Position numbers and translations under genes: made by a program
Assembly (NCBI RefSeq): GCF_037975245.1
Contig: NC_092574.1
Location: forward strand, 5,326,713 to 5,390,712
Origin: Apostichopus japonicus
Taxonomy: Eukaryota > Echinodermata > Holothuroidea > Aspidochirotida > Stichopodidae
Length of the DNA: 64,000 bases
Direction of reading: 5' to 3'
Part shown: positions 11,901 through 61,090 of the stretch, piece after piece
Layout of the letters: every line of letters begins with the position of its first letter
Position numbering within the stretch: the stretch's first letter is position 1
Notes under the pieces: model-generated
Databases searched by the model: none
What the model was told of the DNA's origin: nothing
The model's input: only the letters and a program-made list of their open reading frames with translations

Positions 11901-13608
11901 TCTGGTAGTTCGCGACACTCTGATTACGAATCTGAACTTTATTTTGGAATTGGGTACCAAATTGAGGTACTTTTTTTAACTTTGCATGACAAAACACCTA
12001 TTTTTGGCGCAAATAGATATGATATAAACAAAAAGCCTTTCCCGGTCAGATAATTACACGAAATTGGTGTATAACAAAGACAAGAGTGTCTTCTACTTCA
12101 CGTCTAATTTTAATGTCGATGGGTGTTTCAGAGAGGACAAGAGAGGGGGCTGAAAAGAGGGGGTTTTCCAAATTTTGCACTTATAAAGAACAGTCACGTA
12201 TTTCTATCTTGTACTTTGGGACCACGTATCTCCCGAACGGAAGCAGATATGGACCTGGGAGTTGCAGATTTGGGCTCCTGAGCATCGATTACTCCCCGTT
12301 ACGTCTTTTGGGCGAAATCGATTTTGGGTCAATTTTTGGCAATTTTTATTTGCGCGAAAAATAGGTGTTTTGTCTGAAAAGTGAAAAAAGTACCTCTTTT
12401 TGGTACCCAATTCCAAAATAAAGTTCAGATTCGTAATCAGCGTGTCGCGAACTACCAGAAAAGATCCACATTTATCGACTTTGCGACAACAAGTTTTTTT
12501 CACCTCAAAAAAAGTAAGAGCGAAAAACTTTTACGACGAACAAAGGATTAAAATCTTTTGTTGTCCCTAAAAGTTTTTCGCTTTTCTATTGTTCATCTGA
12601 AGTTGCAAACTGAGCGAAAAAAGTGTCATAAGAGGGCGCAAAGGCGATAAATGTGTATCTTTTCTGGTAGTTCGCGACACTCTGATTACGAATCTGAACT
12701 ATATTTTGGAATTGGGTACCAAATTGAGGTACTTTTTTTAACTTTGCATGACAAAACACCTATTTTTGGCGCAAATAGATATGATATAAACAAAAAGCCT
12801 TTCCCGGTCAGATAATTACACGAAATTGGTGTATAACAAAGACAAGAGTGTCTTCTACTTCACGTCTAATTTTAATGTCGATGGGTGTTCAGAGAGGACA
12901 AGAGAGGGGGCTGAAAAGAGGGGGTTTTCCAAATTTTGCACTTATAAAGAACAGTCACGTATTTCTATCTTGTACTTTGGGACCACGTATCTCCCGAACG
13001 GAAGCAGATATGGACCTGGGAGTTGCAGATTTGGGCTCCTGAGCATCGATTACTCCCCGTTACGTCTTTTGGGCGAAATCGATTTTGGGTCAATTTTTGG
13101 CAATTTTTATTTGCGCGAAAAATAGGTGTTTTGTCTGAAAAGTGAAAAAAGTACCTCTTTTTGGTACCCAATTCCAAAATAAAGTTCAGATTCGTAATCA
13201 GCGTGTCGCGAACTACCAGAAAAGATCCACATTTATCGACTTTGCGACAACAAGTTTTTTTCACCTCAAAAAAAGTAAGAGCGAAAAACTTTTACGACGA
13301 ACAAAGGATTAAAATCTTTTGTTGTCCCTAAAAGTTTTTCGCTTTTCTATTGTTCATCTGAAGTTGCAAACTGAGCGAAAAAAGTGTCATAAGAGGGCGC
13401 AAAGGCGATAAATGTGTATCTTTTCTGGTAGTTCGCGACACTCTGATTACGAATCTGAACTTTATTTTGGAATTGGGTACCAAATTGAGGTACTTTTTTT
13501 AACTTTGCATGACAAAACACCTATTTTTGGCGCAAATAGATATGATATAAACAAAAAGCCTTTCCCGGTCAGATAATTACACGAAATTGGTGTATAACAA
13601 AGACAAGA
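2946..13608. repeat. Higher-order AAB block of the satellite
   Basis: Unit type B differs from A by loss of one T in the GGGTGTTTCAGAG word (GGGTGTTCAGAG) and carries a linked T-to-A change (GAACTATATT) about 150 bp upstream. B units lie at 1423, 4470, 6755, 9040, 10563 and 12848. Their spacing is 2285 bp (three units) except 1523 bp (two units) between 9040 and 10563 and four units between the first two. This gives an A-A-B trimer repeat with one trimer short of an A. The linked markers show that blocks of three units were copied together. Confidence 0.85.
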
Positions 13609-16600
13609 GTGTCTTCTACTTCACGTCTAATTTTAATGTCGATGGGTGTTTCAGAGAGGACAAGAGAGGGGGCTGAAAAGAGGGGGTTTTCCAAATTTTG
13701 CACTTATAAAGAACAGTCACGTATTTCTATCTTTGTACTTTGGGACCACGTATCTCCCGAACGGAAGCAGATATGGACCTGGGAGTTGCAGATTTGGGCT
13801 CCTGAGCATCGATTACTCCCCGTTACGTCTTTTGGGCGAAATCGATTTTGGGTCAATTTTTGGCAATTTTTATTTGCGCGAAAAATAGGTGTTTTGTCTG
13901 AAAAGTGAAAAAAGTACCTCTTTTTGGTACCCAATTCCAAAATAAAGTTCAGATTCGTAATCAGCGTGTCGCGAACTACCAGAAAAGATCCACATTTATC
14001 GACTTTGCGACAACAAGTTTTTTTCACCTCAAAAAAAGTAAGAGCGAAAAACTTTACGACGAACAAAGGATTAAAATCTTTTGTTGTCCCTAAAAGTTTT
14101 TCGCTTTTCTATTGTTCATCTGAAGTTGCAAACTGAGCGAAAAAAGTGTCATAAGAGGGCGCAAAGGCGATAAATGTGTATCTTTTCTGGTAGTTCGCGA
14201 CACTCTGATTACGAATCTGAACTTTATTTTGGAATTGGGTACCAAATTGAGGTACTTTTTTTAACTTTGCATGACAAAACACCTATTTTTGGCGCAAATA
14301 GATATGATATAAACAAAAAGCCTTTCCCGGTCAGATAATTACACGAAATTGGTGTATAACAAAGACAAGAGTGTCTTCTACTTCACGTCTAATTTTAATG
14401 TCGATGGGTGTTTCAGAGAGGACAAGAGAGGGGGCTGAAAAGAGGGGGTTTTCCAAATTTTGCACTTATAAAGAACAGTCACGTATTTCTATCTTGTACT
14501 TTGGGACCACGTATCTCCCGAACGGAAGCAGATATGGACCTGGGAGTTGCAGATTTGGGCTCCTGAGCATCGATTACTCCCCGTTACGTCTTTTGGGCGA
14601 AATCGATTTTGGGTCAATTTTTGGCAATTTTTATTTGCGCGAAAAATAGGTGTTTTGTCTGAAAAGTGAAAAAAGTACCTCTTTTTGGTACCCAATTCCA
14701 AAATAAAGTTCAGATTCGTAATCAGCGTGTCGCGAACTACCAGAAAAGATCCACATTTATCGACTTTGCGACAACAAGTTTTTTTCACCTCAAAAAAAGT
14801 AAGAGCGAAAAACTTTACGACGAACAAAGGATTAAAATCTTTTGTTGTCCCTAAAAGTTTTTCGCTTTTCTATTGTTCATCTGAAGTTGCAAACTGAGCG
14901 AAAAAAGTGTCATAAGAGGGCGCAAAGGCGATAAATGTGTATCTTTTCTGGTAGTTCGCGACACTCTGATTACGAATCTGAACTTTATTTTGGAATTGGG
15001 TACCAAATTGAGGTACTTTTTTTAACTTTGCATGACAAAACACCTATTTTTGGCGCAAATAGATATGATATAAACAAAAAGCCTTTCCCGGTCAGATAAT
15101 TACACGAAATTGGTGTATAACAAAGACAAGAGTGTCTTCTACTTCACGTCTAATTTTAATGTCGATGGGTGTTTCAGAGAGGACAAGAGAGGGGGCTGAA
15201 AAGAGGGGGTTTTCCAAATTTTGCACTTATAAAGAACAGTCACGTATTTCTATCTTGTACTTTGGGACCACGTATCTCCCGAACGGAAGCAGATATGGAC
15301 CTGGGAGTTGCAGATTTGGGCTCCTGAGCATCGATTACTCCCCGTTACGTCTTTTGGGCGAAATCGATTTTGGGTCAATTTTTGGCAATTTTTATTTGCG
15401 CGAAAAATAGGTGTTTTGTCTGAAAAGTGAAAAAAGTACCTCTTTTTGGTACCCAATTCCAAAATAAAGTTCAGATTCGTAATCAGCGTGTCGCGAACTA
15501 CCAGAAAAGATCCACATTTATCGACTTTGCGACAACAAGTTTTTTTCACCTCAAAAAAAGTAAGAGCGAAAAACTTTTACGACGAACAAAGGATTAAAAT
15601 CTTTTGTTGTCCCTAAAAGTTTTTCGCTTTTCTATTGTTCATCTGAAGTTGCAAACTGAGCGAAAAAAGTGTCATAAGAGGGCGCAAAGGCGATAAATGT
15701 GTATCTTTTCTGGTAGTTCGCGACACTCTGATTACGAATCTGAACTTTATTTTGGAATTGGGTACCAAATTGAGGTACTTTTTTTAACTTTGCATGACAA
15801 AACACCTATTTTTGGCGCAAATAGATATGATATAAACAAAAAGCCTTTCCCGGTCAGATAATTACACGAAATTGGTGTATAACAAAGACAAGAGTGTCTT
15901 CTACTTCACGTCTAATTTTAATGTCGATGGGTGTTTCAGAGAGGACAAGAGAGGGGGCTGAAAAGAGGGGGTTTTCCAAATTTTGCACTTATAAAGAACA
16001 GTCACGTATTTCTATCTTTGTACTTTGGGACCACGTATCTCCCGAACGGAAGCAGATATGGACCTGGGAGTTGCAGATTTGGGCTCCTGAGCATCGATTA
16101 CTCCCCGTTACGTCTTTTGGGCGAAATCGATTTTGGGTCAATTTTTGGCAATTTTTATTTGCGCGAAAAATAGGTGTTTTGTCTGAAAAGTGAAAAAAGT
16201 ACCTCTTTTTGGTACCCAATTCCAAAATAAAGTTCAGATTCGTAATCAGCGTGTCGCGAACTACCAGAAAAGATCCACATTTATCGACTTTGCGACAACA
16301 AGTTTTTTTCACCTCAAAAAAAGTAAGAGCGAAAAACTTTACGACGAACAAAGGATTAAAATCTTTTGTTGTCCCTAAAAGTTTTTCGCTTTTCTATTGT
16401 TCATCTGAAGTTGCAAACTGAGCGAAAAAAGTGTCATAAGAGGGCGCAAAGGCGATAAATGTGTATCTTTTCTGGTAGTTCGCGACACTCTGATTACGAA
16501 TCTGAACTTTATTTTGGAATTGGGTACCAAATTGAGGTACTTTTTTTAACTTTGCATGACAAAACACCTATTTTTGGCGCAAATAGATATGATATAAACA

Positions 16601-18790
16601 AAAAGCCTTTCCCGGTCAGATAATTACACGAAATTGGTGTATAACAAAGACAAGAGTGTCTTCTACTTCACGTCTAATTTTAATGTCGATGGGTGTTTCA
16701 GAGAGGACAAGAGAGGGGGCTGAAAAGAGGGGGTTTTCCAAATTTTGCACTTATAAAGAACAGTCACGTATTTCTATCTTGTACTTTGGGACCACGTATC
16801 TCCCGAACGGAAGCAGATATGGACCTGGGAGTTGCAGATTTGGGCTCCTGAGCATCGATTACTCCCCGTTACGTCTTTTGGGCGAAATCGATTTTGGGTC
16901 AATTTTTGGCAATTTTTATTTGCGCGAAAAATAGGTGTTTTGTCTGAAAAGTGAAAAAAGTACCTCTTTTTGGTACCCAATTCCAAAATAAAGTTCAGAT
17001 TCGTAATCAGCGTGTCGCGAACTACCAGAAAAGATCCACATTTATCGACTTTGCGACAACAAGTTTTTTTCACCTCAAAAAAAGTAAGAGCGAAAAACTT
17101 TTACGACGAACAAAGGATTAAAATCTTTTGTTGTCCCTAAAAGTTTTTCGCTTTTCTATTGTTCATCTGAAGTTGCAAACTGAGCGAAAAAAGTGTCATA
17201 AGAGGGCGCAAAGGCGATAAATGTGTATCTTTTCTGGTAGTTCGCGACACTCTGATTACGAATCTGAACTTTATTTTGGAATTGGGTACCAAATTGAGGT
17301 ACTTTTTTTAACTTTGCATGACAAAACACCTATTTTTGGCGCAAATAGATATGATATAAACAAAAAGCCTTTCCCGGTCAGATAATTACACGAAATTGGT
17401 GTATAACAAAGACAAGAGTGTCTTCTACTTCACGTCTAATTTTAATGTCGATGGGTGTTTCAGAGAGGACAAGAGAGGGGGCTGAAAAGAGGGGGTTTTC
17501 CAAATTTTGCACTTATAAAGAACAGTCACGTATTTCTATCTTTGTACTTTGGGACCACGTATCTCCCGAACGGAAGCAGATATGGACCTGGGAGTTGCAG
17601 ATTTGGGCTCCTGAGCATCGATTACTCCCCGTTACGTCTTTTGGGCGAAATCGATTTTGGGTCAATTTTTGGCAATTTTTATTTGCGCGAAAAATAGGTG
17701 TTTTGTCTGAAAAGTGAAAAAAGTACCTCTTTTTGGTACCCAATTCCAAAATAAAGTTCAGATTCGTAATCAGCGTGTCGCGAACTACCAGAAAAGATCC
17801 ACATTTATCGACTTTGCGACAACAAGTTTTTTTCACCTCAAAAAAAGTAAGAGCGAAAAACTTTACGACGAACAAAGGATTAAAATCTTTTGTTGTCCCT
17901 AAAAGTTTTTCGCTTTTCTATTGTTCATCTGAAGTTGCAAACTGAGCGAAAAAAGTGTCATAAGAGGGCGCAAAGGCGATAAATGTGTATCTTTTCTGGT
18001 AGTTCGCGACACTCTGATTACGAATCTGAACTTTATTTTGGAATTGGGTACCAAATTGAGGTACTTTTTTTAACTTTGCATGACAAAACACCTATTTTTG
18101 GCGCAAATAGATATGATATAAACAAAAAGCCTTTCCCGGTCAGATAATTACACGAAATTGGTGTATAACAAAGACAAGAGTGTCTTCTACTTCACGTCTA
18201 ATTTTAATGTCGATGGGTGTTTCAGAGAGGACAAGAGAGGGGGCTGAAAAGAGGGGGTTTTCCAAATTTTGCACTTATAAAGAACAGTCACGTATTTCTA
18301 TCTTGTACTTTGGGACCACGTATCTCCCGAACGGAAGCAGATATGGACCTGGGAGTTGCAGATTTGGGCTCCTGAGCATCGATTACTCCCCGTTACGTCT
18401 TTTGGGCGAAATCGATTTTGGGTCAATTTTTGGCAATTTTTATTTGCGCGAAAAATAGGTGTTTTGTCTGAAAAGTGAAAAAAGTACCTCTTTTTGGTAC
18501 CCAATTCCAAAATAAAGTTCAGATTCGTAATCAGCGTGTCGCGAACTACCAGAAAAGATCCACATTTATCGACTTTGCGACAACAAGTTTTTTTCACCTC
18601 AAAAAAAGTAAGAGCGAAAAACTTTACGACGAACAAAGGATTAAAATCTTTTGTTGTCCCTAAAAGTTTTTCGCTTTTCTATTGTTCATCTGAAGTTGCA
18701 AACTGAGCGAAAAAAGTGTCATAAGAGGGCGCAAAGGCGATAAATGTGTATCTTTTCTGGTAGTTCGCGACACTCTGATTACGAATCTGA
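13609..18790. repeat. Satellite block with C-type and A'-type units
   Basis: Type C units (2184, 13609, 15894, 17418) have an extra T in ATCTTTGTAC and lack one T in AAAAACTTTACGAC. A' units (14371, 18180) share only the second change. The order here is C, A', A, C, A, C, A'. No B unit occurs in this block. The C unit at 2184 next to the left edge shows that the same variant also sits at the other end of the visible array. Confidence 0.8.
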
Positions 18791-19100
18791 AGCCGGCCTC
18801 AACTAGCTGTGTTGTCGAAACACCTTGACACTAACCTCAGTGAAACCCTCAACATGCAATACCAAGTTTTGTTGTCGAAACACCTTGAAACTTGGCTAAA
18901 CAAGCTGTGTTTTCGAAACACCTTGAAACTAGCCTCAACTTGCTGCGTTGACGAACACCTTGATACTTATCTCAGTGAAACCCTCAGAATGCAATACCAA
19001 GTTTTGTTGTCGAAACACCTTGAAACTAGCCTCAACAAGCTGTGTTGTCGAAACACCTTGACACTAACCTCAGTGAAACTCTCAGAATGTAATACCAAGT
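18791..19100. repeat. Minisatellite of alternating 38- and 60-bp units
   Basis: The word CGAAACACCTTGA recurs at about 18816, 18876, 18914, 18952 (one base shorter), 19011 and 19049, so spacings are 60, 38, 38, 59 and 38 bp. The long spacer holds CTCAGTGAAACCCTCA and the short one GCCTCAACAAGCTGTG. It abuts the satellite directly with no unique DNA between. A 123-codon open frame runs through it but only reflects the repeat. Confidence 0.85.
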
Positions 19101-23627: not shown

Positions 23628-26600
23628 CTGCAAGGTAAATTAATAACATCATTATAAAGCATTCACAATGTGTAAAATCACTACAGAGTTTAACAAGATG
23701 TACAAGTGACATAGCTACTCAAGGAATGGAAGTGGTTTCACTATGTAAAGAATAGAAGTGGTTTCACTCTGTAAGGAATAGAAGTGGTTTCACTATGCCT
23801 AGATGGTTTCACTTTGTAAGTTATGAAAGTGGTTTCACTTTGTAAGGAATAGAAGTGGTTTCACACAATGAAAAAGGTTTCACTATGCCTAGAATGAAAG
23901 TGGTTTCACTATGTTAGGAATGAAAGTGGTTTCACTTTGCACAGAATGAATGTGGTTTCACTATGTAAAGAATAGAAGAAGTTACATTGTTTGCAGTTTT
24001 CTCATCTTACTCCCATACAATACCCTTCCCTACATCTCTCTTACAAAGGACAACTGGTTTACATATCAGGTTTTGACTTTTATTGCTTTCAGTAACAACA
24101 ACTCATTCACTCAATTTACAGCATATCCAGTGGTGCTAGGTTCAGTGTCAATCATAACACTTGATTAGAACTCTTAATAATCTCTTATGGTTTATCTGTC
24201 TTTGTGTCTATTGAAGCGGTTTTCTCTCAGTAAAGTTGAATCCCTGAAATGAAAACTTAACCTGTAGTTGAATGGACTGAGGCAAAACTAATGATTCCTG
24301 AAATTAATGTTTTATTTGTAACTGACTGAGCTGACGTGGAATGTCCAGAGAGGTTGGAGATACCTTGAACGATCATACAGAAATTTGAAAACAGTTTGAT
24401 TCCTATAAAGAATTTAAATTACCTGTAGTTGGGTGAACTGAGACAGCATGTTGGTTGATGTCACAGCAGTTTCTGAAGACTGGGTGGAATCAGTGGGACT
24501 ATTCTTCTCTGCCAACATTTCTCTGACCCTCAATGGTGACCCCGAAGTAGCCTAGAATGATATAAAGAAAACTAATCATAAGATAACCATTGAAGACAAC
24601 ACAATCAACAGTAACATCAAAAATAGCATGCAGTGGCAGATCCAGGATTTATTGAAAGGGTAAGGGGGGGGGGGGGGGTGGAGGGTTAAGGGAATGAGAC
24701 AAGTACCGACAAAGCGGTGCCTAAGGCCAAACTGATGAAAGGCAAGGAATGCACGTGTGTAAAGCATGCTACAAAGTTTTTGAAAGTTTACCTTCTTATG
24801 ATGAAAATTATGTTTGTAGCTAAGTGCCAAACAATTTCACAAGAGGGGCCCAGACTCCCTCCTTTGTTCCATCCTTTACATGTAAAACAGGGCATTGATA
24901 GATCCAAGAGAAGTATGGAATTTAGTGACCCAACATTCAAACATGATAAACTACAAGATGACCAAAGGTGGTTTCTAACAATAAAGAATCTAGCAAAAGA
25001 AAATAAGTAATAACCAGTTAATAACATGACATTCCAAATACCAATAACTTAATACAGAGCTACCTATCATGTAACAATAAACCTACAAGGTGTCTTACCC
25101 TGAAACCACCTGACTTTACTGCCACAACTCATGACAATGACAGGAACAGAATAAAACAAATTTGTCAGAATCGTCTTAAAATGTCGAGAGTCTCAACCCA
25201 TTTTTTTTTAAGTGTTCAAAGGGTTGTTGTAAATTGACTTTAATATGGGGTAAGCTAGTATAGAGTGCAAGTATAGTCATTGACAATGGTATCATTTCTA
25301 ACAGAAACTAAGTTCCAAGTTACTGAAGACTGAACAAGACAAATTGATGGAATTCTTATTGCTTCCAAGGATGGTGTCTGGGTCACATTCAAGGACCACC
25401 TCTCACATATAATGTTTTAACTGACTTTTACAGCAAGTTGGATTACCTGAGCTAGTTGGTCTTGTGTAATGGTGATGTTTGGTGCTGGCTGCTGCTGTTG
25501 TTGTGTCTGCTGTTGTTGTTGTTGCTGTTGTTGATGTTGCTGTTGTTGCTGCTGTTGTAACTGAAGTAACTGTTGTAGGGTGGCTGCTGATACTTGCTGC
25601 GGTCGTTGTTGGACAGTCGTATTGTAGAGCACTGCTTGATGTTGTCCCTACAAGAAATAATTACGGTATTATTTTCTGAAACTTTAATCAAATTGGCAAC
25701 TTTGTGTGGTTACTTTCAAGTGAGTGCTCTTCAATAAAGTGGGTTCTAAAAGTAGTGTGAGTCACTCAAATGCATCCAACTACTACCAAGTCCTAGCTGA
25801 GCAACTGTCACCATATCCCTGAATTTTCAGTCCTACCACCCCCCCTCAAAACCCCCTCCCCCCAAAGCCAACCTGTTCTTGTTTATCTTTCACCTACCGG
25901 TAATAGAGAAACCTGAGCTTGGTTGCCTTGTTTGGTGGACACTCCTTTGAGGCTAGCCATTATCTGAGCCAGTTTAGCTTGTGTCATGGTTACCTGACCA
26001 GTTAATTGTGCTGCTTGGCTGGTAGTCAGGTTCACAGGGGTGTTGGTTATCACTGCCTGGGAACATTGGGGGTTACTGGTCATAATATTAGACCCACCTA
26101 TGGTAGAAAAAAAAACATCCACTAAATGGTGCTGAATCTTCATGAATATATCTGAGGCTTGTTTTCTTAGCATGCTCGTAATGTACTTGATTTCAAAGTC
26201 GGGTTGTCAGGCAATAGAGTAGGGCAGGGGATGGGAAGGGGTATGGGGGCTATCTTGACAAAGGATTCAAAGTGAAGTCAACCATATTCCCTTTTATCTT
26301 AGTGGTGATTTAGTCTTTTTCAGAACCCACTCCCTTCCGATAAAGACCATGTACCATGACAACATTGTCAATACAACTTGTCGGATACTGATTCCCCAAC
26401 AACCACGTAAAACTCAGAGAACATTTCAGTAAAGTATATCAAACATACATCCAGTATGGATCCATAGTCTCTAAGCTACTACAGTTAGTGTTCTTTTATT
26501 AAAGGTCTACAGACACCTATGAACAACACTGTCCTAATCACTCTGATAGGCATTGGAAATCATGAAAATAGCTGCAACTCCTATCAAATCCATCAAAGTT

Positions 26601-29600
26601 TGACCAGTCTTTTCTTAATTCTAATTATCTTTATGAATAAACATTAGCCGATTATGCCCATGGATTTTGTAAAAAAGGAGTGACTGCCTAATTTTCTGTT
26701 ACGTGATCCCTCTGTTTTCACCACCTTTGATTTCAAGGACACTGAACAAAGGTCCGTGGCCTAAGGCGATTTGTTGAAATATTTCATTGTGTTCTTACTT
26801 TGAAAAGAGGAACATCAAATGATATATTTGTGATTTTATTAGGGGTTAATTTTATATCAAGGACCAAAATAAGACATTTTGATGAGAGCAACACTCTACG
26901 TCATAGTTTGCACATATTTAATGAGTTTCCCATAGTTATCAAAACTTCAAATATGGAAATGAAAAGAGTTTACAAAAAATTTCAACAGATTTTGAATGAC
27001 ATTATAAAACACAACAAATGAACTGAATAGGGGGCAAATTGTCTTGACGTCCATAGTGCTTTAACATACTGTATTTACCTATTATGTTAATGGCTCCTGT
27101 GAATATGGGGCAAATTGTCTTGACGTCCGTAGTGCTTTAACATACTGTATTTACCTATTATGTTAATGGCTCCTGTCAGCATCCCAGTCTGGTTGGGTAG
27201 GATGTGAGTCGTGGTCCTGCCTCGGGAGCTACTGGTGGTGACAGCTGCTGTGTTGGAGGAGCTACTGACAGACCTTTGAATAGATACCAGGCCACCTGAA
27301 AGAGGAGGAGGGAGGAGGAGGAGGGGGGTTGGGGAGGGGTGGGGAAATCACAACAAAATTAGTCCTGTTAGTTCTGTGCAAGCTACAGCAAGGTTCCTGC
27401 TTATGAGTACCACATACCAATCATCAGCTCATGAAAAACTATGGTAGGGACCAATTTGAGATAATTATTACATTATAACTTCGCTTTAAAGTATAAACAA
27501 ACACTTAAGCCTCTAATGCCTAGAATTCATTACATCTATGAACCGAAGATGATATTTGTAATCAATTGTCATTCACTTAAACCTGCTTTTTGTATTGGAT
27601 TTGCTCCAATCCTGTGTCACAATGTTTCACCGTTCAGGGCAAAAACAAGAACCCGAACAAAATCAATTTAATGCTGGCATTATGACATTGGGCATAAATT
27701 TTGCGTACGTAACAATATGACACATTAAAAGTTTGAGCGACACAAAATTGTGTGTCTTGTGAGTTCACAATAATTCCCCAATTTAAAGCAACCAACTCAA
27801 TTTAACTACATACATCTCTTTAGTTAAAATGAACCTTATCCAATTAAAGTGTAAGTAGTACTTAGTATTTTTAGTAATTTTCTCAGGAAGTTAAAAATGG
27901 TATGGAAACACAGACAGGAATGATAGCAGCATCTTTCAACAGTCTAACAAAATATCAAAATGAAATTGTGTTCCTTTGACACAGAGAATCTATCCCAGAT
28001 ATTCTGATGCCATAAACAAGTTGCACTGACCCAAATAAAACACATAGCAGCAGTCCATGAAAAGGATAAATAATTCAGGTACAGTAGATAGGATGTAGTT
28101 TTACCTGTTTGAGCAGCGGAGACCAAACCAAGACTAATCGGTACAGTCAAACCACCTGGGACTGTCAAATTCAAAGAGACGGTCTGCCTACCATCGGAAT
28201 TATCACCGGTAGCCTCTTGTAAGATCTGGAGGCCGCTAAACTGTGAGAGGTCTGTAGCTTGTATGGCAGTAGCACCGCTAGCATTGACAGTAAGGGTGGA
28301 CGAAGATAAAGGGGTGGTGGGAGGACCCATCGAACCTACAAAAACAAAACAAAAACAGACAATTGAGCTGCTGAAAATGTCAATCAAAAGCATCTTTTGA
28401 AAAACTGCAAATTTTAAGAAAGGAAGAAAGAGAATGTAGAAAGGAAGTGAAGAACACATCTTCAAAATGAAAACACTTTAACATATAATTATTCTACGAA
28501 TAAATCTTTCACCATAGAAACCATTTCACTATTTCGATCTAATGTGCATAAACAACGTAACAACAAAGAACTAAAACCCCTTCCCCTCTTTGATTCACCT
28601 CACCTTGCTATGAATAATCTACAGCATATACTTTGAACATGCAGGGATGTGCCCAGGATTTCCTGAGTGCCGGGTGTACTGATCGCCGTACTAGGGGAGG
28701 GGTCTAAGGGGGAGGGGTTTCCCTCTTATTTTTGGATTTTTGAAGTGCTCAGATGCCAAATGCACTTGTGTAGCTTTTTAAGCACATACACAAGTACTAT
28801 TTTTGCTAACAATTTACATTTTTAAATTTTTTTTAGTGAAATATATTACGTACCAGGTAAAAGTTATTAGTTTGTTTCAAAGAAATTTTACAAGGGACCG
28901 ATTGAGAGCCGTAAGTAATGTTTCTCGCATGTGTAACTGATGCATTGTTAGTCTGTATGATTTTGGCATAGGCTAGGCCCAATTTATGTTGATATATTGT
29001 TAGGAATGTCGGGATTTTAGATGAAAATAGTGCTGGGCGGGATTCACGATTTGTAAGACAGTGCTGGGCGGTAATTTTTAGAGCTGGGCGGGGCTGCCCA
29101 GCGTGGGCACATCCCTGAACATGCAACACTGAAGAAATGATGCTCATAGTCTGAACAGAGAAATCCATTGTCCTAGTTTAAATTCTCAAATTAAAATGAA
29201 GTGGCAGTTTTCTACATTCTGTAATTGGCATCACACACACACACACACATGGAACACAATGGCAACATTTGGGTTTCATTACACCCAAAGTTCTTATTTC
29301 GTGAGAAACAGAGGACTGAAACGAACGTCCAGTCATTGTGCATCTTACACAAATAGACAACATGGTAAGAGACCACACAGTCTGTTTTTTTTTTATTGTC
29401 ACTTCTCTTTAAAAGATGCTACCAGCAGATATAAGTTCATATTTTAAGCATGACATTTCGTTGCTAGCTGAAAATAATGAAAAATATCAAAAGAGGTTTT
29501 ACAGCAGTACAACTACAACAATATAAAGACCAAACCACATAAAACCATTGAACATGGAATGAAAAGGAAAACGATGGAAAGAAATAAAACCATGGACGTC

Positions 29601-32600
29601 ACCTTGGAAGGACGTCTTTGCTTTAGGGATGGTGATCCTCCTGTGTGGGTAGGGAGGTACCGGTTGAGTCGGTAAACTAGGCGAGGAGACCGCTGACGTA
29701 TGATGAACTACAGAAGAGGGTTGTGTAGCAAGTCTTACTACTGTCAGGACAAAAGATAACATTGCATGCATGAGTACAATAGCCACTGATAACACTAAAA
29801 CATCGCATACAAGAATAGACTAACATCACCATCAAGTCTCTCTTATCCTCTTCTGACATCTACGGTCCAAACCAGCTTGGGAAGTCATAGATTTCTCTTG
29901 GAAGAACTTTTGTTTTGGGGTAAGGCAGCAGTGGGCAAGAGGCACCCTAAAAAAAGGAAGCTGTTTACATTGAGTAAATCTGTTTGGGTCATCTTCATTT
30001 CCTCTCAGTTTTATCTTTTATAGAGGGACTGTCAGCCTGCCTCTTCTCTCTCTCTCATTCCACTACCCCCCCCACCCTCCCCCCTCCCCACCCCCCCTAC
30101 CCACCTACAACCTGTAGATGTAGTTCAAAATAGCTGTGTATATGTGTGACTGAAAAATACCTTGAAGGAGAAAGAAACTTGAACTACAGTATGCCAGTCA
30201 CTCACTGATAATAAAAAAACCAAAACACAAAATAAACAACAGATATCACCAAACCTAGACATGCTAATAATAGATAAATATATATAATAAACATTAACAC
30301 AAGGAACATCTAATCACAAACAAACCACAAGTTTTGAAACATCAATTAAATTCTTAAATTTAATCACAAACTGCACACTTGTAGACATTTATAGGCGAGG
30401 TGCTGGTCTCAAAAGTAGTCAAGAGAGACAGAGGAACGGGAGAACAAAGCAAGTTTTTCTTTAAATATTTGTTGTTTTCTTTAAATATTTGTTGACTTAC
30501 AATATGAGCTTCTCTGTTGATAATTCTATGAGTTGCTAGTAAACTGTTTGTGCTTTGTGTAACTGAAGGGTGGTTAGCTTGTTCCACAAGACACTTTGGT
30601 CTCAGACTACCTGGCATGCCAGAGAACCACTTCAGACCAGTCTGTGAACTATAATCCAACTCGATTAGATCAGATTAGATTAGATCGACATTATTAACTT
30701 GACTACTATAGTGAAAATTAAAGCCAGATTTTTAGTTGACAACACAGTGCCTGTCATTCTGATAGAAGGCAATGATGGAGCACATTAACTGAACAGAGAT
30801 CGCTCTCTTAAATCATGAGAGACGATAGCATTGTATAGTAATAATTCTCACCTGTTGGTGTCGTTGGTACTGATGAACTGCCGGTAGATGAAGGCGATGC
30901 TGCCATAGTATTCTCTGGTTGGTAACTGTAACATTCAGAGATCAAGTGTGAACATCACTGACAATACAGACAGGTGTTACACATACAGTAGATTACACAC
31001 ATTCCATGTAGTCCTAACACTACAACCCAATAGATCTAAGCCATTGTATTCTCTGGTTGGTAACTAACATTTAGAGATCAAGTGTGAACATCACTGGCAA
31101 TACAGACAGGTGTTACACATACAGTAGATAAAACACACAATCCATGTAGTCCTAACACTGCAACCCAATAGATCTAAGCCATTGTATTCTCTGGTTGGTA
31201 ACTATAACATTTAGAGATCAAGTGTGAACATCACTGACAATACAGACAGGTGTTACACATACAGTAGATTACACACACTCCATGTAGTCCTAACACTGCA
31301 ACCCAATAGATCTAAGCCATTGTATTCTCTAGTTGGTAACTAACATTTAGAGATCAAGTGTGAACATCACTGGCAATACAGACAGGTGTTACACAAACAG
31401 TAGATAAAACACACACTCCATGTAGTCCTAACACTGCAACCCAATAGATCTAAGCCATTGTATTCTCTAGTTGGTAACTAACATTCAGAGATCAAGTGTG
31501 AACATCACTGACAATACAGACAGGTGTTACACATACAGTAGATAAAACACACACTCCATGTAGTCCTAACACTGCAACCCAATAGATCTAAGCCATTGTA
31601 TTCTCTGGTTGGTAACTGTAACATTTAGAGATCAAGTGTGAACATCACTGACAATACAGACAGGTGTTACACATACAGTAGATTACACACACTCCATGTA
31701 GTCCTAACACTGCAACCCAATAGATCTAAGCCATTGTATTCTCTAGTTGGTAACTAACATTTAGAGATCAAGTGTGAACATCACTGGCAATACAGACAGG
31801 TGTTACACAAACAGTAGATAAAACACACACTCCATGTAGTCCTAACACTGCAACCCAATAGATCTAAGCCATTGTATTCTCTGGTTGGTAACTGTAACAT
31901 TTAGAGATCAAGTGTGAACATCACTGACAATACAGACAGGTGTTACACATACAGTAGATTACACACACTTCATGTAGTCCTAACACTACAACCCAATAGA
32001 TCTAAGCAATGAAATACTTCTATATTCACAGCTTTGTAACTTCTGATTTCCAAGTTTAAAATACACCTATTAAAGAACAATACCTGATAACAGTGTCAGC
32101 TGTGTTACAAGGGACAGTTACGGGCCCTACGGGATAGCATATTCTCTTCTAGAGGTTATTCCTCTTCTGTTTAATACTGCATTGTCATGGTAACCAAGGT
32201 ATTTGTTCAACTTTCTTCATTCAAGAGAGATTTTTCAATTTTCCATGTTTACACTACATCATATTCGTTTTGAATACAAGAGTTACGTACACAAACACAA
32301 TTTACTACTTTATCATCTCTCTGTGAAATTTGAAATGAACCAAGTAGTCAAAATAACAGACCTCCCAGAAGCAAAATAAAGGTTTTTTATAAAGGTTGTA
32401 AACGAAGAAATAAAGGTTTTTAAAGGCTTCAAAACATGAAAATAAAGATTTAAAGGTCCAAAATGAAGTTAATTTGAAACATACTCACAATCTATTCCCA
32501 TTTTACATCATCTGTGGCCCTTATTTAAAATACCTGACTTACACTAACTGTTGCTTGTAAGTCTGTTTTGTATCACTGCATGAATAAATGCCTGGCTGTC

Positions 32601-35600
32601 CACAAAAACTTAATGGCCAATGGTTAGCATGACTGAAAAAATTATTTCTACTCTAAACTAATCTTTAAAATATTTTTTTTTTAACTTAAAATGAAAATAA
32701 AGATTTTTAAACAGTATTTTTGAAAAATACAGAGCTGTTTTTACAATATAGGTTTTTTAAAGATTATATGGTTTTAAAGGTTTCACTGGGAGGTCTGTAA
32801 TTAGGAGTTCACCCTATCTAGCTGTTACTTGGCCAAGCATAATCAGAGAACTAACCTCGGTGGATAAGCCGGTGGCTGGCGTACAATCTGGTGATTACTG
32901 GTCTGTAGGGTGACCATTGGTGACGAATTGGCCACTTGTTCCCGAGACGTCTGTGGATTGCTAGCTTGGTGTAAAGTTTTGTTCAATGGTACAGTCAACT
33001 GGAGTGAGCGTCTATCATGAAGACTTGCATTGTCACCACCCTAAATGAGAAATAGCTATGTTAGGAGACTTTTCTTCTAAACAGATATATTTCGGCATTT
33101 AGTAATACACAATGCCCATCACTGAACAACAGACAAACTGGCATTAATTAACTAATGGTATGATAAGAACACGAACCATCCTAAAATCTTTTCATCAGCT
33201 AACTTAAAAAAAAAAAAAACTCTTCTGAATTGTCTTTAACTAAAATACTACATGCAAATAAGAAAAGTTGAAATTATGCACACATAAGAGCATGAAATGA
33301 AAACTTGTGAAATTCTTACCCCTGTTAGATGAATGATTTTGTTGCTGGTGGTACTCCTTTGAATGTTGTTACCTGCAGCTCCACCGCCTCCCCTCTCTGA
33401 AGGGTCCTTGACCTCTGTCTTGACCTTCACTGCACCCTGCTGCTGCTGTTGCACTGCAGAGTTTTGGATCACCTGCGGGGGCTGACCGGGCATTATACGA
33501 GATATCTTGACCGGTCTCTTGGTCTCAGTACTTAAAGTATCTGTCAACTGCTTCAAGTACCTGACAACAATAACCAACGACATAGTTACACTCTCATTGC
33601 TTCTAACAACAGTTATCTGAGTTGCCTTTTTTAATTGCTTTGACATTATCCTGTCATAAAATCACATAATAATATAGTTCAAGAGCTTGACACACAAACT
33701 TTCATTCAAATATTGAAGTCAAAGTCAAACCTTTTGAAATTTTGCAATTTGTGTTCAGTTTTAATCTTTGCAAGTGATTAAAACGATCCTGAAAAGCATC
33801 TCGTCAATGAAATGTTGAGAAGCAAATCAAATTCAATAATCACTCTTCATTAACCTTAACGTGGGAGAAAAAGCTTGCATGAGGGAGGTGATTGGAGGGG
33901 TCAAGGTGTCTTCATTGGACCAGTTGTTATCTCAGCATTGTAAAACTGATGACCAAACAAAGCAAGCAGCTGCTCAATCGATGGCAGTAGATGCATATTA
34001 AAGCACTAAGTAAGATTAACATATTTACCATATATATCTGTTATAAGGGCCAGGATATTATGCACTATTTGAACAAACAACAATTTGCAACCCAATTGTA
34101 GGCGAGAAAATATACATGATTAGTAATTACAGATTGTAGTGTGGATATGAGTCAAGACACTGCAGTAGGGGCAATGTGGGTGATTTGTGAAGTTACATAA
34201 TAGTTTACCTTTGTGCATTCTGCAAGCATCCTAAGTAAAACCTGTTGCAAAGAATGAACAAAAAGTTAGAATATTTACACCTGAAGTACTTGTTCATAAG
34301 TATAATAAGAATTATTCTTCCAGCATGATCAACATAAATATGATATAAAAAAAAAACATATTAAAACACAGAAATGATGTTGAGATGTTCCTATGTTTAA
34401 TAGAAGGAGCAGAAGTAATCAAAAGAATCTAGTAAGGTTGCTGTAATCAAAGCATTAATTATCATACAAAGGGACATGGATCATACTTCTCTCATTCCAC
34501 AAACCTTGTCTCCACAATCCAGCTCTAAATACTGTAAGATGACATCACAGGTTACAGTTGGCAAATTAGTTTTGTATCAATTGTATGAATAGCCAACAAA
34601 TCAGCATTTTGTGAATATGTATGAACAGAATTTGTATAGTTCTAGTCTCACTTGGAAAAAGACAGTAATCACTTGCGCAGAGCAGAAGAACATAATCTAC
34701 TACACAAATTTTTAAAAAGGTGAAAACAGATATAGTAATCTGTACATTGAGAAGTTTATACATCAACCTAATAGCCGACAGTTGCAATTCTATGTTTTTT
34801 CAGATTTACATTAAAAAAAAAAAAACATTTATGCATCGATGACAGTGCTTTAATTTACTCTGACAAAGATCCTAACAATATTAAAAAAAATCTTTCTTCT
34901 AACCTGGAGAGTGGCAATAAATGGCTCATTGAAAACAAATTGTCGTTACACATGGGTAAGACCGAGTTGATTTTGTTTGGGACCAAACGTAAACTTGGTC
35001 AGTATACTGACTTCTCAATTATTTGTGATGGTCAACTGATTAAGGCCAAACATTCTGTTGTTTACCTCGGTCTGGAATTAAACCAATACCTTGATGGCGA
35101 ACAAATTGTTCTTGGCATTATTAGTAAAACAAATTCTCGACTCAAATTCCTCTACAGGCAAGCTAATTATTTTAATCAAAATATGAAAAAGACCATCTGT
35201 ACAGCCCTTGTTCTTTGTCTGTTTGATTATTCCATCTCATCTTGGTATGGAGGTATTTCTAAGTACCACGCTCGTAGATTACAATGTGCCCAGAACAAAG
35301 TTGTCAGATTCATTCTGGGTAAAGATTTTTATTACCACATTAACCATGCTGACTTTAAAACTCTTGGTATTTTGAACATCAACACTAGGGCTGAACAGCT
35401 TCGTCTTAATCATGTTTTTAATGTTTTCCATGGTACCTCTCCAGTCTATATGAGGGAGAGTTTTATTAGAGTAAATAGTGTTCATAACCATAACACAAGA
35501 GGTAGTAGTTTTAATTTTCAACTTCCCAAAATTAAAACGCACTGTGCTGGGTCTTTTTATTACAATGCAATTAAAAACTGGAACAGGCTACCTGAAAACA

Positions 35601-38600
35601 TAAAATCCATCCTGCTGAAATACAATTTTAAAAAAGATGCCAAAGCCTACCTTTTAAATCATATGAATGTCTAGCTTGTAAATATCTTTCTTTTTTACAG
35701 TGTTTGTATGCATGTTTTAGTTGTTTTAATAGTTTATTTCTTATCTTTTGTATTTTATTGGTTTTAAGGACCCCTTTGGAAATAAGCTTTTAGCTTAAAG
35801 GGTTATCCTTGGCATGTTATCTTCTTTTCGATGCATTTAAGTTTATTCCCTTCATGTATTTTAAATGTTTATCTTTATGTGCAATTTTTTGTTTGTATGC
35901 AGATGAAGATTGATATCTTGCCGAATAAAATCAAATCAAATCAAATCAAATCAAACAAGTTCAGGCTCTTAGAAAGCTGACCATTCATCAGCTGTTAAAT
36001 AATCTGAACACTTTTCCCAAAAACTAATATCAGAAGTATCGTTAAAGGAGAAAAATTGGCGTAAAATCTGCCCCAGAACTGTTTCAGAGGTCCGTAGGGA
36101 AGTTGGAATCCAAACTGAAGGTTAAAATGTGTCCACCTGGATAGCAATCTTCACTTTCCCACTTCATACTCTCACTGAGCTTACCTTCTTCCATGACAAA
36201 CTTTTCAAACAATGGCTACTCCTCAGATAATTTCAAAATGGAAAGAGGAGTGTGACAGGTTTGCCCACTCAGTTTATATATTTTGCTGATTTTTGCAAAT
36301 GCCTCTTGCAATGAAGTGTTCACATAATGACATTGCAAGGGGCAGCAGGATTCCCATTTGTGAGGTTAAGCTCTTGCAACATGCTGACGACACCACTCTT
36401 TCTCTGGAAAGTCATTTAGATTCCTTTAAGAAAGTGATATCTTTACTTGAGAACTTTTACAGTATTTTTGGTCTGAAGGTCAATTAGATAAATCGACTCT
36501 TTTCTCAGTAGACCACTTTGTTTGAAGCAAACCTGCCTTTCTGAACAGGTTTACCGTCCCCTGGGTCCTTAGCTCCGGTCATTACTTCAGGGGTGCAATT
36601 TGCCTCTCATCATGAGGACCTTTTTTCTCTTAGTTATTTACTTTTGGAAGAAGGATGGATAAAATTCATTGTCCTACCATTATTTAGACCCTATTTAGTT
36701 GCGGGGGATGAAACGTTCATCACGTGGATAGCTTTATCACATGATTAAAGTGTGTACTTGGATTTGCTGTTATACAATAATGATATGCCAAGCTATTGGA
36801 ATATGTTCTGTAATATATTCAGCTTGCCCTTTTTGGTTAAAGTGTCTTGATAAAATGAAATTGTAAATCTACTGATATTCATAATACCTTAAATCAAAGA
36901 TATTGTGCTTTCCAGGCAAAAAGTCTCCTAAAGGCACTGGACAGTCAGTTTGGAAACCAAACTATTAATTGATACTAATAATTCTTATATTAAAGTAAAC
37001 AATGATATTATCTTCTGTCACTTTATGTTTGACAAAATGGTTATTTATGTACACGATATTTCAAATTGGGAGGGACAGTCGTTCCTTATCATACTGTACC
37101 TCTTTAGTATATAATACATTGTCAGTTAACTTAGTACTGCGTTATGTTAAGGGTCGTCCCGGTGTTGCTCTTACAGAGAATAAATCTTATGAATTTCAAA
37201 TGATGTAAGGGTCTCTAGGTCTACTTACAATATAGTTCCATGTTGTTATCTGTGATGAATGTACATGAACTAGAAACACATCATTGAAAGAGGTGAAAAA
37301 AGACATTTTTGGAGGGATTTAAAGTATCAAAAGTACTAAGTTACCAGCAAACCACTTATCTGTTCCATACAGTGGTCTCATAGGCCACGTATGTCCTCCT
37401 TATAGTCCACGTTTAGACCACACATGGCACTAGGATGGTTTACCTATCAGCAAGAAGACAAATGAATGGTGAATGATATCTTACTTGGTTGTTCCTGTTG
37501 CCTTCCTGCCTTCTTCAGGGTTATAGTCTCTGTCAAAGTAGAGTTCACCCTGGTACATCTGGTCCAGCTGTCTCTGTTGGATTTTAACTCTCACATGGAG
37601 TTTCTTGCCACTAGACTGCTCAGTCTCTAAGATCACTTCTTCAACTGGTATCTAGGTGATATATGGAACATTATATGAGGAGTATTATAATTATACTCAA
37701 AAGCATAACATGTCTTTGACATTTGAAGAACTTTTTTCTCCCTTTCATGCCTCAAAATAACACCTTTTCAGACTGTATTGCTTATCATCAAGATCAGTAA
37801 CACATAGGGCCATATTATGAAACAATGGTTTAAGTGGCATGATTAGCTTTTCACTACACAATTCAAAGTACCCTGGAGAACAAACATATCATGTTCTTCT
37901 GTTCAATCCACGTCCAAGTGATGACAAAATGGCTGTTACCTTTCAAAACAACATATATGCCAACAAACAAAACTACAGCAATTTCATGCAGATGTATCAA
38001 GCCTAGCCTACTTTACATATAAGGATTGGGACAGATAATGTTATTACCATCAACTGGCATAAATGACTTATTACCAGCTACTTAAAGCTGTTTGAGAGAG
38101 AAATCAAATTTCATGGCTTTTGCAGGACACCTTTCACTTGTAAATTAAGTGAATCTTTCATGAGTGGTAAAACAATCATGTATTTACAGCAATGCATTAT
38201 TAGAATCAACTAGTAACTTTTATCAGAAGAATGACTTATGTTAACATTACACCCCAGAACCAATCCAGACAGCAAGATAAATCATATCTTTGTATTAGAA
38301 TACGATAACTGTGCACATCTCTGCTGTTAATCTTGTTGTCAATGTGTACAAACTTGGTATTTTCATACTCTAGACTTGAGGTAGCACTGCATGCTACATT
38401 AAAGACACTAGGCTACTATTATACCAGATTGATACTCACCACTGAGCTATCAACCAATCTAGGACGATCAAGTGCTGTCGAATACTGCTCCACCTATGGC
38501 AAATAAAGACAACCAGTGCAGTTTAGTAGAAGACTTTCAGTTTTTAAAGCAAACAGTAAAAAAGAAAAACTGGAGAAATTTCTGCTCCTCTCATCATACT

Positions 38601-41600
38601 TTGCCGCACACAAAGTTGAAAGCAGGAATACATGAAAAACATCTCAATTTCCATAAGAATCTGTGTAAGTTTCGCTCTGCAAAGAACAAACTTCCAGATG
38701 TCTTGGGAAGTTTCCTCAGTATTAATTTTAACGACAGAATCATTGTAGAAATGAGAAATTGGGGAATGAATATCATTATTTTTTTGAATATAGTATGTTT
38801 CACAGTGGAAAGGAAAACGATTCTTTTTAGGATAAATCCTACTAAAATCAAAACGAGACAATTCTTTCAGACTAGGAAGAAGGAAAACATTCTCATGAAA
38901 CTTGCAAAGTTTGGTAGTTATACAATGAATTCTTTCAGTTGAAATGTGTCACTTTGTTTTATTGGTTTTGTTTATATTTTTTGATAGGCTGGTGACATAA
39001 TTATTTTTTTTCTTCAAGTTCAGGTTACAATTTGTTTTTGCTTCTTTTCACTTTTCTCTTATTTTTTTTTTAAGTGCCATCTTTGTAAATTTGACATTAA
39101 TAAAACTTGACCATTATAAGAATGAGTCATAGAGATACTTACATTAATGGATTCTGGTGCCTGCAGATTTAAGTCTCTTTGTCGCCACATGTCTACACAC
39201 TGGAATGACAAATACAATTAAAATCATGTTCTGCAGGATGTGCTTTTTAACTCATGTTCAATTTTATAACAAAAATCAATAACATAAAGTGACTGGGGAT
39301 ATTGTGAACACTTTTATGAAGAAGAAAAACACTTTTTGCTAAGAAGAGAATTTGAAACAGTTAATTACCTCAAGATTACAAGTCCTGTGTTCTAATTAAT
39401 TGATTGCAATCCTTAAATAACCATAATTCTGATGGGGCTGCCCTCAAGAAACATGGTGCACAAGTCAGTTTCATTCAATACAACCCAGAAAATTGTAAGG
39501 AAGAGATTTTTTTTTTTAATTTAAATTTAGTCTTCTAAGCTCATGTGATGTTTCTAACATGATACTTGGAACAAGAACGGTAACAGTAAAAATCTGTAAA
39601 AGTAAAACATCAACACTTTAGAACCGTACAAAATACCCTTCGGGCTACCATGAAACATGCAAGGTCACAAGAGATTTTAACTGAACGAAATCTAAGTTAA
39701 GAAATGGCTAAATAATATAAACGAGGACAATCGATGGAGTTGCAGGTCTCATCTCAGTCATAACTTTACTCTTGGCATCCTCATTTTGATGGCTAAATAA
39801 TATAAATAAAGAATTAAGTAGACACTATATTCTTACGTCTAACATATGTAGAATATGAAAGCGGAACTGACTCTGTAGCTTAGAATTAACCCAAAAAAAT
39901 GCATTGGTGCTTTATACCGAAACTATTCCAAAGATTATCACCCACAACAGCAGGAAGTTTTTCATCTTAGAATTGCATCCAACATGAGCTTTTTGCCTCA
40001 TGCTTTAAAATATACTTTTATTTCCAAACTTACAATTTTATGCAGCAGTAACTTCTGGGTGAGAAAGACCAAAACATAGAATCAATTTCACTTAATAAAT
40101 CCTCACCGGCTTGCCAACTTTCAAATTGACAGGTGGAGGTGCATTCCTCTCTTGTCTTTTGGCTAGAAAGTCGATCAGTTGTAAACCAGGAGGAGCAGGA
40201 AATGTCTTAGCCATTGCTCTACGGTTCCTCAGTAACTGTGAGTGTCTCCTGAGGGACCTATGTATGACAAACAGACGTGTCATCATTGACATCATTAATA
40301 TGGAAGCAAGATAAAGAGGGGTGGAGAGGCATCAAGACTCAGGGATGAGCTAGGGTAAAAAAAAAAAAATCACTGAACTTTGCAAAAATTGTGGTATAGG
40401 CTCCAGTTTGCATATGCTACAGTGTGTTAGGATAATAGTTTTTGTCCCCGAGGTAGAAAAGAAATCACGGATATTCCGCGAATTCGCGGAAAAAGCTCAT
40501 GCCTGAAGACTACACTCGACTCAAAATGATCACCAAGTCCACATAATCAAACTTATTCAAATGAAAATCACACCATTTTCATACTTCTTCTGAGGAATAT
40601 CTTTCGTACTACTGCTTCTTTTTGATACAGCAGTGTTCTTTAAGCTTCGCTGCTGAAATTAATGCTAAATCTTTAACCTGCTTCACCAAAGTAACTTGTG
40701 CAATCTTTGATACAAAACGTAACAAGGTAGTATTCCTTGTTCTGTAATGCTGCAGGTTGCTGGTTATATTAATAACAATAAACTAAGTAACAAACAAAGA
40801 ATGCCCCAATTTTGATATGAAAGAAGTCAAAACACCGCATTCATCTGTTATGTAGTCAAGGTAGGTGAAACATTGTGTTAAAGAATATATTGAACATAAA
40901 CTAAAACGTGAAAGATAAAGAAACAACTATAAAATACCAAGGATGTGATCTGTCCATGTTGCCATTCTTCAAATAATTACATCATTGAATCTTATTGGAG
41001 ATCTGTCTAACTTACCATAGTGCAGATATCACATCATCCAATCTTACTAAAACTTGCAACATGGATGTGATCTGTCCATGTTGCCGTTCTTCAAATAATT
41101 ACATCATTGAATATTATTGGAGATCTGTCTAACTTACCATAGTGCAGATATCACATCATCCAATCTTACTAAAACTTGCAACATGGATGTGATCTGTCCA
41201 TGTTGCCATTCTTCAAATAATTACATCATTGAATCTTATTGGAGATCTGTCTAACTTACCATAGTGCAGATATCACACAATCCAATCTTACTAAAACTTG
41301 CAACATGGATGTGATCTGTCCATGTTGCCGTTCTTCAAATAATTACATCATTGAATCTTATTGGAGATCTGTCTAACTTACCATAGTGCAGATATCACAT
41401 CATCCAATCTTACTAAAACTTGCAACATGGATGTGATCTGTCCATGTTGCCATTCTTCAAATAATTACATCATTGAATCTTATTGGAGATCTGTCTAACT
41501 TACCATAGTGCAGATATCACACAATCCAATCTTACTAAAACTTGCAACATGGATGTGATCTGTCCATGTTGCCATTCTTTAAATTATTATATCATCGAAT

Positions 41601-44600
41601 CTTATTGGAGATCTGCCTAACTTACCATAGTGCAGATATCACATAATCCAATCTTACTAAAAGATGCAACATGGATGTGATCTGTCCATGTTGTCATATA
41701 TCCTGTTGTCACACTAACCATATCAGAACACACATGGCATTATGATTGCCTAGTTAATGACTTTCACCTATGGCAAATAAATGTTTAATTCTCTATCTGT
41801 GAGCATATACACATATTTTGACTAAACTTAATGCAGCAAATGTCATGTCATAGTATTCACATCTTAACTACATCAATAGAATATGGAATTTCAAGTTGTC
41901 ACTTTTGCTTGAGACTACTATACTCCTTGAAGTTTGTAAAATATACATGGCCGCATTAATGATACCATTACATGTTACTTTAATTTAAAAGATGTGTAAT
42001 TACCTCTTGACTGGTCTGGTAAACAATCTGTTCCTCTGCTGGTGCATTCCGTTGGAGAGACAAGCTACGGAGATTGACGGTTCCAAGCAGAGAGGATCTT
42101 GAGTGGCAAGAAGAAGGCGGCTCTCCAACTGTAACTTATCGTCCTGATCAATTAAAACATAAACACACTTTTGAAATGATTAGAATCTAATAATCCGACA
42201 GATGCAGGCCATTTATACCATCTTTATGTTAAGAAAAGACAGAGTAACTTTGGGGAGACTTATTGATCTTATGACCTTAAAATAATAACAATAATTGAAC
42301 ACAAACTACTTCTCCAAGCATGTCTGAAAGCTAAATGTCAGCTTCTTTTCATACTGTATTTTTGTCAAGATAAACAAATAAGGCATCAGCTTTAAATGGT
42401 TTGTTGATGAAAAACAACAGAAAAACAACATGTAATTTGTGGGACAGACTATAAACAGTTAAAATCTTTTCTGATAAGAAAACAACTGATACATCTCATA
42501 GTTATATGTGTAACTACAACAAGGCTTAAACAGAATATTGTAATGTTACAACGCGATACAAACACAGCCTTTAAGGGTGACATCACACACGACCCCAGGA
42601 GATATGTCATCATTCTAAACCTGAAGAATTTATTGAATTATATGAATCATGTTTCAGGATCAAAATCATCAAATTAAGACAGCCAATGTGTTATATAAAC
42701 CTTCCTACACATTTACAGTAATGATGCAGTTGTTTGGAGATATCTAATATGTTAGCTCATGGCTGTGTCTGCTTGAATTAGCCAGTAAGTCTACTCTACA
42801 AGGTAGAGCCCTGTCCTTGGTTCCCTTCTAAGCACATCTATGAACTGTCACAGACTGAGAACCATGTAGCTAAAAATCTACAGGGTGATGGCATGCTGCA
42901 TCTTAGTAAATATTATATTATCTATGATATTTGTTAATTACCATGGTCCATCTGTTTCCATCACTGCTCAAGTATCCTACATCACTCAGTAAACTCTGTC
43001 ATGAAAGATGTAAAACAATCAATTAAAACTCTTGCTTCATTCAATCAATGAATCATTAAGTTTCTTTTCTAAATTTAATTAACAATTTACAACATTTACA
43101 AGGTAAGTACTACCCAGAAGTGACACAAGAAATCAGAAAGCCAGTTGGCTCTGTGATTCCTTGCCATAGAAGTGTGCTCACAATTCAAAAAATAACTATC
43201 TGACTAATGTAGAGCAAGTGAGTCCAACTTGTCCAAGAATTAAGTTAGAACCAGAAAAGATCAGATCTTTCCAACTCTTATTTGTATCACACCCTTGTGG
43301 GCATCAACCATGTCATTCACTGGTAAGGATTTTACAGTATACAATTTTTATTCTAAAATGTTTCAACATCCAGAAAGAACAGTCTTAAAATAGACACATA
43401 GATGTATGAATAAAAGGTCATTTTCTTTTACCAATTTTGAGCTAGCAAGTCCCTTTAATAATTGTTGTTTATGAACGAAAGTTACATGACATTGTTTATA
43501 CACTGTGAAATATTTTCACAACCTTCTGCCAAAGCAAAATCAGCTAGTATAAGTCACAGAGAAAATGGCCAATTTTGAGACCATTTGAGATAACCTGCTG
43601 ACCACTTGAAGCTCAGAGGGTGAAAACTGATAAGAGCATTTAAGTGCACATTTAAAGTAAGACAATGAACACTCTGAAGTAGATTTCATTTCCTGGATGA
43701 CTAAATGTATTGTTGAAGACCTAAAGAGCCCCTTCACAAAAACTAAACTGAACTGTTTTAGTACTTTACCTGAGCAGTTGGTTTCAAAAGAGTGTGTCTA
43801 ACTGCAAATGTCTGGTGACTGGTTGATTGCCTGAAGTCCCGGATTTCACATATAACATTTCCTTGATAAAATAAATTTTTCTGAGACTTCTCTAAAAGAT
43901 CAAGTAAAATTGGTGGAAGCTGAAAAGAGAAGATGGGTGGACTTGTTGTGGCGTATAGATTACAAAACTGTTGTTCTGCTCTTATGTTTAACACAGACTC
44001 AACTTGTATAACTTGGTCTGTTAGGCTCTACCAACAATAATCAATGTTAGGTGAGTAGGAATTACACCACGAACTTAAGAACAAGCAGTGGATTATAGCA
44101 ATGGATTATAGCAGTGGATTATAGCAGTGGATTCTCAGAAGATCTGTAAATGCTAGACCACATCCACGTAGCAATTGTGGATACTGAATTCCTCACAAGA
44201 TTATATGACACACTTATTACCCTAGATTCTGAACATACGAAATTCCCTTGCTATACAACGGTGCTACGATAGTCCATTGCAAAAATATCTCTACTGTACT
44301 CATGTTATGATGCATTGATCAATCTAGATCAAAGTTGTATTTTCACTAGGAAGTAGATTTTTAGCTCAAATTTGTCTCAGAGCTCTATGTGGCAGTGTAT
44401 AATGATCTAGTTGTTTACCTCACGTGGGAACAAATAAAATGTATGCGATTGGATTTGCTTAGGCAGCTCATCTGGAACATTTTTTTTCTTTAACAGAATA
44501 AGCAGAATGTTGGTTAGCAAATTATGATCAGCTTTGGGCTGTCATAGACATCTCTACAAACTAAGGTAAAGAAAATGGTATTCACTTATTCAGTTAAGAA

Positions 44601-61019: not shown

Positions 61020-61090
<71 letters not shown>

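Follow-up and report, generated by a model that had tools for sequence, protein, structure and literature searches.

SUPT20H and its exon model

The stretch of DNA analyzed here, 64,000 nucleotides in length and referred to below as the window, contains a minus-strand gene that we identify as SUPT20H, within which eight tandem units of 138 bp extend across the start of a coding exon. Tblastn matches to human SUPT20H form a chain from 46111 to 39140 in the 64-kb window with a combined E value of 5e-33, and the protein predicted from our gene model matches the Pfam family Spt20_SEP (PF12090) at 96.7 bits (cut-off 27.1). When model residues 1-634 were compared with PDB chains, residues 2-285 matched 8h7g_D (E 3.7e-80) and 7ktr_C (E 4e-80), both named SPT20 homolog and both of which we take to be human. 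The assignment to SUPT20H made in a preliminary description of this DNA is thus well founded. The G+C content of the window is between 0.32 and 0.40 in 4-kb blocks, against about 0.41 for Branchiostoma, a difference that gives no preference to a lancelet host and is still compatible with one.

The gene model comprises 19 exons picked by hand from an automatically generated chain of 50, leaving out 31; exons were retained according to their coding score, their phase, and their resemblance to human SUPT20H, and the start of one retained exon was shifted from 33650 to 33560. Together the exons amount to 2431 bases and read through as 810 stop-free codons. Among those omitted, 29740..29603, which is 138 nt long and phase-neutral and has a coding score of 9.5, may be a real exon, and inclusion of two short exons with low scores, located in the intron preceding the array (32595..32549 and 32126..32084), leaves the entry phase at 30925 unchanged.

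The array-bearing exon, 30925..30852, is 74 nt long and is the fourteenth in our partial model, corresponding to what had earlier been numbered exon 17. It is entered in phase 2 and left in phase 1, taking two nucleotides and leaving one, in agreement with both the upstream exon 33040..32856 (donor GAG/GTTAGTT, leaving two nucleotides) and the next downstream model exon, 28335..28105, which takes one. Its acceptor has a position-weight matrix (PWM) score of 5.3, and its donor at 30851, CAG/GTGAGAA, scores 11.8, the best among the 19 model exons. Because the exon sits 3' of the region with significant similarity to SUPT20H, calling it depends on these phases and on this strongest donor; it also has a coding score of 13.6, which is partly circular in that the exon belonged to the training set. 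Omitting the exon from the model produces a frameshift and a stop after 503 residues. An additional exon between 33040..32856 and 30925 was considered and is not required, as the phases join directly.

Organization of the tandem array

The array occupies positions 30902..32009 on the minus strand, close to the 30903 to 32006 given in the preliminary description. Tandem Repeats Finder (TRF) reports it at 30902-32007 with a period of 138, 8.0 copies, 94% matches, and a score of 1936, and direct parsing places the unit starts at 30902, 31040, 31178, 31316, 31454, 31592, 31730, and 31868, with all seven spacings exactly 138. The outermost two units align over 143 bp at 96.5% identity (E 4.5e-62), which excludes chance similarity. 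Read in the orientation of the gene, a unit consists of 114 bases from the end of the intron followed by the first 24 bases of the predicted exon, and, as had been noted previously, it therefore begins within the exon and carries the exon's acceptor. Only the last, exon-proximal copy continues into the remainder of exon 30925..30852, which makes the other seven intronic replicas.

The exon-proximal unit (unit 0, 30902..31039) has its acceptor at 30925 (TTACAG/TTACC). Each replica retains an AG in front of 24 exon-like bases followed by an in-frame TAG, and replicas 1 to 7 follow outward on the minus strand: replica 1 (31040..31177, acceptor 31063), replica 2 (31178..31315, acceptor 31201), replica 3 (31316..31453, acceptor 31339), replica 4 (31454..31591, acceptor 31477), replica 5 (31592..31729, acceptor 31615), replica 6 (31730..31867, acceptor 31753), and, at the outer edge, replica 7 (31868..32009, acceptor 31891). 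The eight acceptors had been thought near-identical, and this holds for the two replicas (31891 and 31615) that share TTACAG with the true site, but the site at 31201 has TTATAG and the remaining four have GTTAG, a two-base loss. In these four replicas the two bases missing just before the AG are offset by two extra bases elsewhere in the unit, and the period thus remains 138.

A T-to-A change in the exonic segment is present in all seven replicas, and three of them (31339, 31477, and 31753) have a second exonic change. The description of the 24 bases as carrying one change, and as reading YQPENTMA before the TAG, is thus accurate for four replicas, whereas the other three have two changes and read YQLENTMA; the TAG itself is common to all seven.

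Tandem arrays are easily miscounted and there are other tandem arrays nearby, such that the repeat might be a product of assembly, or else an internally repetitive transposable element. The units, however, differ from one another at 13 of 140 columns and are not the product of a simple one-unit miscount, and the unit holds the start of SUPT20H's own exon. Searches of the window with the units find just 12-15 bp matches with E values up to 1, and with no further copies inside the window we rejected a dispersed-element origin. Either of these explanations is very improbable.

Splice sites and the choice of acceptor

We scored splice sites using generic matrices. Compared with 5.3 at the true acceptor, the replicas score 4.9, 1.5, 4.9, 1.9, 1.5, 3.0, and 1.5 in 5' to 3' order (from 31891 to 31063), so that all seven fall below the true site, five of them clearly and two (31615 and 31891) slightly. 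Other AG dinucleotides within the units, located at or close to 32 nt upstream, score 5.0-5.6, and donors within the array do not exceed 5.6. AGs elsewhere in the intron score as high as 6.7 and one within the exon reaches 7.1, and therefore score alone does not set apart the true site, nor does it set apart the replicas.

The AG with the score of 7.1 is at 30877, and it raises the question of whether this is the true acceptor, in which case the array and 48 exon bases would be intronic and the replicas would copy nothing that is used. The site (CTACCGGCAG/TTC) outscores 30925, and its use keeps the frame, giving a stop-free product with 16 fewer residues. However, the exon that would result is only 26 nt long, the matrix is weak evidence given intronic AGs of up to 6.7, and the version beginning at 30925 has the coding score noted above, albeit from training partly on that exon; we thus consider use of 30877 in place of 30925 unlikely. 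Its presence does modify the view that the spliceosome must use the last of the eight acceptors: an acceptor downstream of the replicas is indeed needed if full-length protein is made, but the in-frame AG at 30877 would also serve.

Selection of the acceptor at 30925 can be explained most simply by exon definition, as understood from splicing generally, because the true acceptor is 74 nt from the strongest donor in the model. Pairing the donor at 30851 with the two nearest replicas, both weaker, would produce exons of 212 and 350 nt, and pairing it with the two best-scoring replicas would require exons of 764 and 1040 nt. The 212-nt exon formed with the acceptor at 31063 would still be permitted by exon definition alone; the replicas are presumably used at a low level. 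The true site and two of the replicas are closely alike in acceptor and exon start and differ mainly in their distance from the donor, and nature thus provides here a clean test of how an acceptor is chosen.

The preliminary description raised the possibility that the array regulates expression through unproductive splicing. In such a scheme, transcripts spliced into a replica would be degraded as early-stop mRNAs and the copy number would set the output of SUPT20H. In favour of it, when exon 33040..32856 is joined in the model to each of the seven replicas in turn, the same in-frame stop results, after 493 of the 810 model residues and upstream of several later junctions. The acceptors, though, are as variable between units as the remainder of the sequence: in a comparison between the units of one haplotype, excluding the first four alignment columns (which hold the extra bases of unit 7), 3 of 23 acceptor columns vary compared with 10 of 117 elsewhere (Fisher p 0.45), giving no excess conservation. 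The probability that two given columns are invariant in all units by chance is 0.82 under random placement, and persistence of the AGs therefore needs no selection. The lower scores of all seven replicas, five of them clearly so, also argue against such a role, and no feature of the sequence points specifically to a regulatory function.

Comparison with other boundary duplications

The organization of the array has clear precedents. In lancelets, a report on globin genes (PMC3087553) describes minisatellite-like duplications of intron-exon boundaries, termed mirages, that had been seen earlier in Adh3. The mirage in BflGb6 has units of 150-160 bp in which an intron's 3' end is combined with the 5' part of an exon, with six and three copies in two haplotypes; splice signals are present in many but not all units, and the cluster boundaries escape homogenization (PMC3087553). 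The SUPT20H array is alike in being a multi-copy minisatellite whose units join an intron 3' end to an exon 5' part, and differs in having eight units rather than six or three and in residing in a gene other than a globin gene (PMC3087553). Lancelet mirages in PGBD5, Adh, and TnC (troponin C) similarly consist of tandem repeats that either duplicate splice sites or lie next to them (PMC3902484). The units in PGBD5 (60 and 108 bp; PMC3902484) and in Adh3 (10-72 bp; PMC3087553) are shorter than the 138 bp of SUPT20H.

At SUPT20H we find a minisatellite-like repeat, eight units of 138 bp with 94% matches, whose unit spans a predicted exon-intron boundary. The array thus closely fits the layout of a mirage and is most likely an example of a kind already described in lancelets. 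If the host is not a lancelet, the array would also show that minisatellites laid out across a boundary in this way occur outside that group. A search of the open-licence literature for SUPT20H together with a tandem repeat and a splice site found no paper, although the locus may still have been reported.

Repeats at exon edges have also been described in human and plant genes. The VNTR in intron 18 of ABCA7 has a 25-bp unit that begins with a splice donor and is present in roughly 12 to 427 copies, and greater length goes together with reduced expression and with more frequent skipping of exon 19, the next exon (PMC5954066). It resembles the SUPT20H array in being an exon-edge repeat, but it copies a donor whereas the SUPT20H units copy an acceptor. 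Human duplicated genes can have internal tandem repeats lying across exon-intron boundaries; such repeats differ from one paralog to another and are able to form novel introns (PMC2812944). They share the boundary placement of the SUPT20H array, the copies of which carry a stop and give rise to no apparent new exon. In a potato RdRp gene, an intron was gained by tandem duplication crossing an intron-exon boundary (PMC4974935). The crossing of the boundary is like that in SUPT20H, but in potato a formerly exonic segment supplied the donor of the new intron.

These precedents bear on a regulatory role from both directions. The relationship between ABCA7 VNTR length, reduced expression, and exon 19 skipping speaks for such a role, as does the possible retention of one ABCA7 VNTR unit by way of a cryptic donor; however, the cryptic-donor event itself is unchanged with VNTR length (PMC5954066). 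Human boundary repeats can likewise give alternative splicing (PMC2812944). In lancelets, on the other hand, the Adh3 data and RT-PCR of globin transcripts suggest that regular splicing proceeds despite the mirages (PMC3087553); Adh and TnC are reported to produce no aberrant mRNAs, and for PGBD5 normal splicing is only suggested (PMC3902484). With acceptors that vary like the rest of the unit, five clearly weaker replicas, and lancelet analogues that are reported or suggested to be spliced normally, the proposed decoy role is not supported. It is improbable that each added unit acts as a competing acceptor diverting transcripts to decay, such that supply of this SAGA subunit differs among individuals; were it true, the copy number of the array would tune SUPT20H expression between individuals.

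Origin of the array

We conclude that the array is very probably a passive, mirage-type minisatellite lying across an intron-exon boundary, with the last acceptor reached by exon definition. Its history would have begun when a 138-bp segment, 114 bp from the end of the intron and 24 bp from the start of the exon, underwent tandem duplication by way of a 2-bp GC microhomology. Read on the plus strand, the breakpoints are ctGC/CATAG at the exon side, aaGC/CATTG at the unit junction, and aaGC/AATG at the outer side, and the GC common to all three would be expected from microhomology-mediated tandem duplication. Amplification and partial homogenization by unequal exchange presumably followed, including a recent duplication of a three-unit block, with the last acceptor most likely continuing to be chosen by exon definition from the strong donor nearby.

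The relationships among the units point to the block duplication. Replicas 3 and 6 are identical, replicas 2 and 5 differ at one column, and replicas 1 and 4 differ at four, and on this basis replicas 1-3 and 4-6 are probably related by a recent duplication of three units, suggesting that the array turns over. At alignment column 22, the two edge units, 0 and 7, share a state that is absent from the six inner units, but only two columns separate unit 7 from inner unit 5.

Other repeats in the gene and window

SUPT20H contains a second boundary-spanning duplication, of 76 bp in two copies (97%), at 27024..27176 on the minus strand, identified by TRF and alignment. It copies the last 22 bases of exon 27295..27155 along with the donor, and if the second donor were used, the frame would end after 655 residues. 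The copied exon end has an AG before it and a GT after it and resembles a tiny pseudo-exon. Two of the three long-period duplications (at least 70 bp) in the modelled span thus cross an exon edge, for which a random-placement simulation, using one unit of each of the three arrays within that span, gives P 0.07; a bias of duplications toward exon edges is possible, and the result is suggestive only. The simulation is restricted to these arrays, and short-period TRF rows, such as 33531-33568 and the exonic CAG-type run at 25493-25558, lie outside it. The former is a 20-bp repeat in 1.9 copies and overlaps model exon 33560..33320 at its start.

A further minisatellite is located in a SUPT20H intron at 40941-41697, with 6.2 copies of a 122-bp unit; it overlaps no model exon, and exon content, for which the unit was also read in six frames, was rejected. 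Two more tandem repeats are present near 22.6 and 23.7 kb, outside the modelled span.

The first 18791 bp of the window (1-18791) are tandemly repeated at a period of 761-762 bp, and TRF, which handles periods of up to 500, overlooks the array. It contains 24 occurrences of a 30-base probe, neighbouring copies are approximately 99.7% identical, and inverted repeats of 25 and of 18 bp lie inside it. The observed/expected CpG ratio is 1.16 in this array and 0.40 in 18800-64000. No Rfam family matches it at gathering scores, and it is probably a young satellite.

Long open frames at 34775-35674 (plus strand) and 53348-54025 (minus strand) have no Pfam match at 1e-3, and by eye are like fragments of non-LTR retrotransposon reverse transcriptase. 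A run of TA repeats of about 188 bp is present at 61017-61204.
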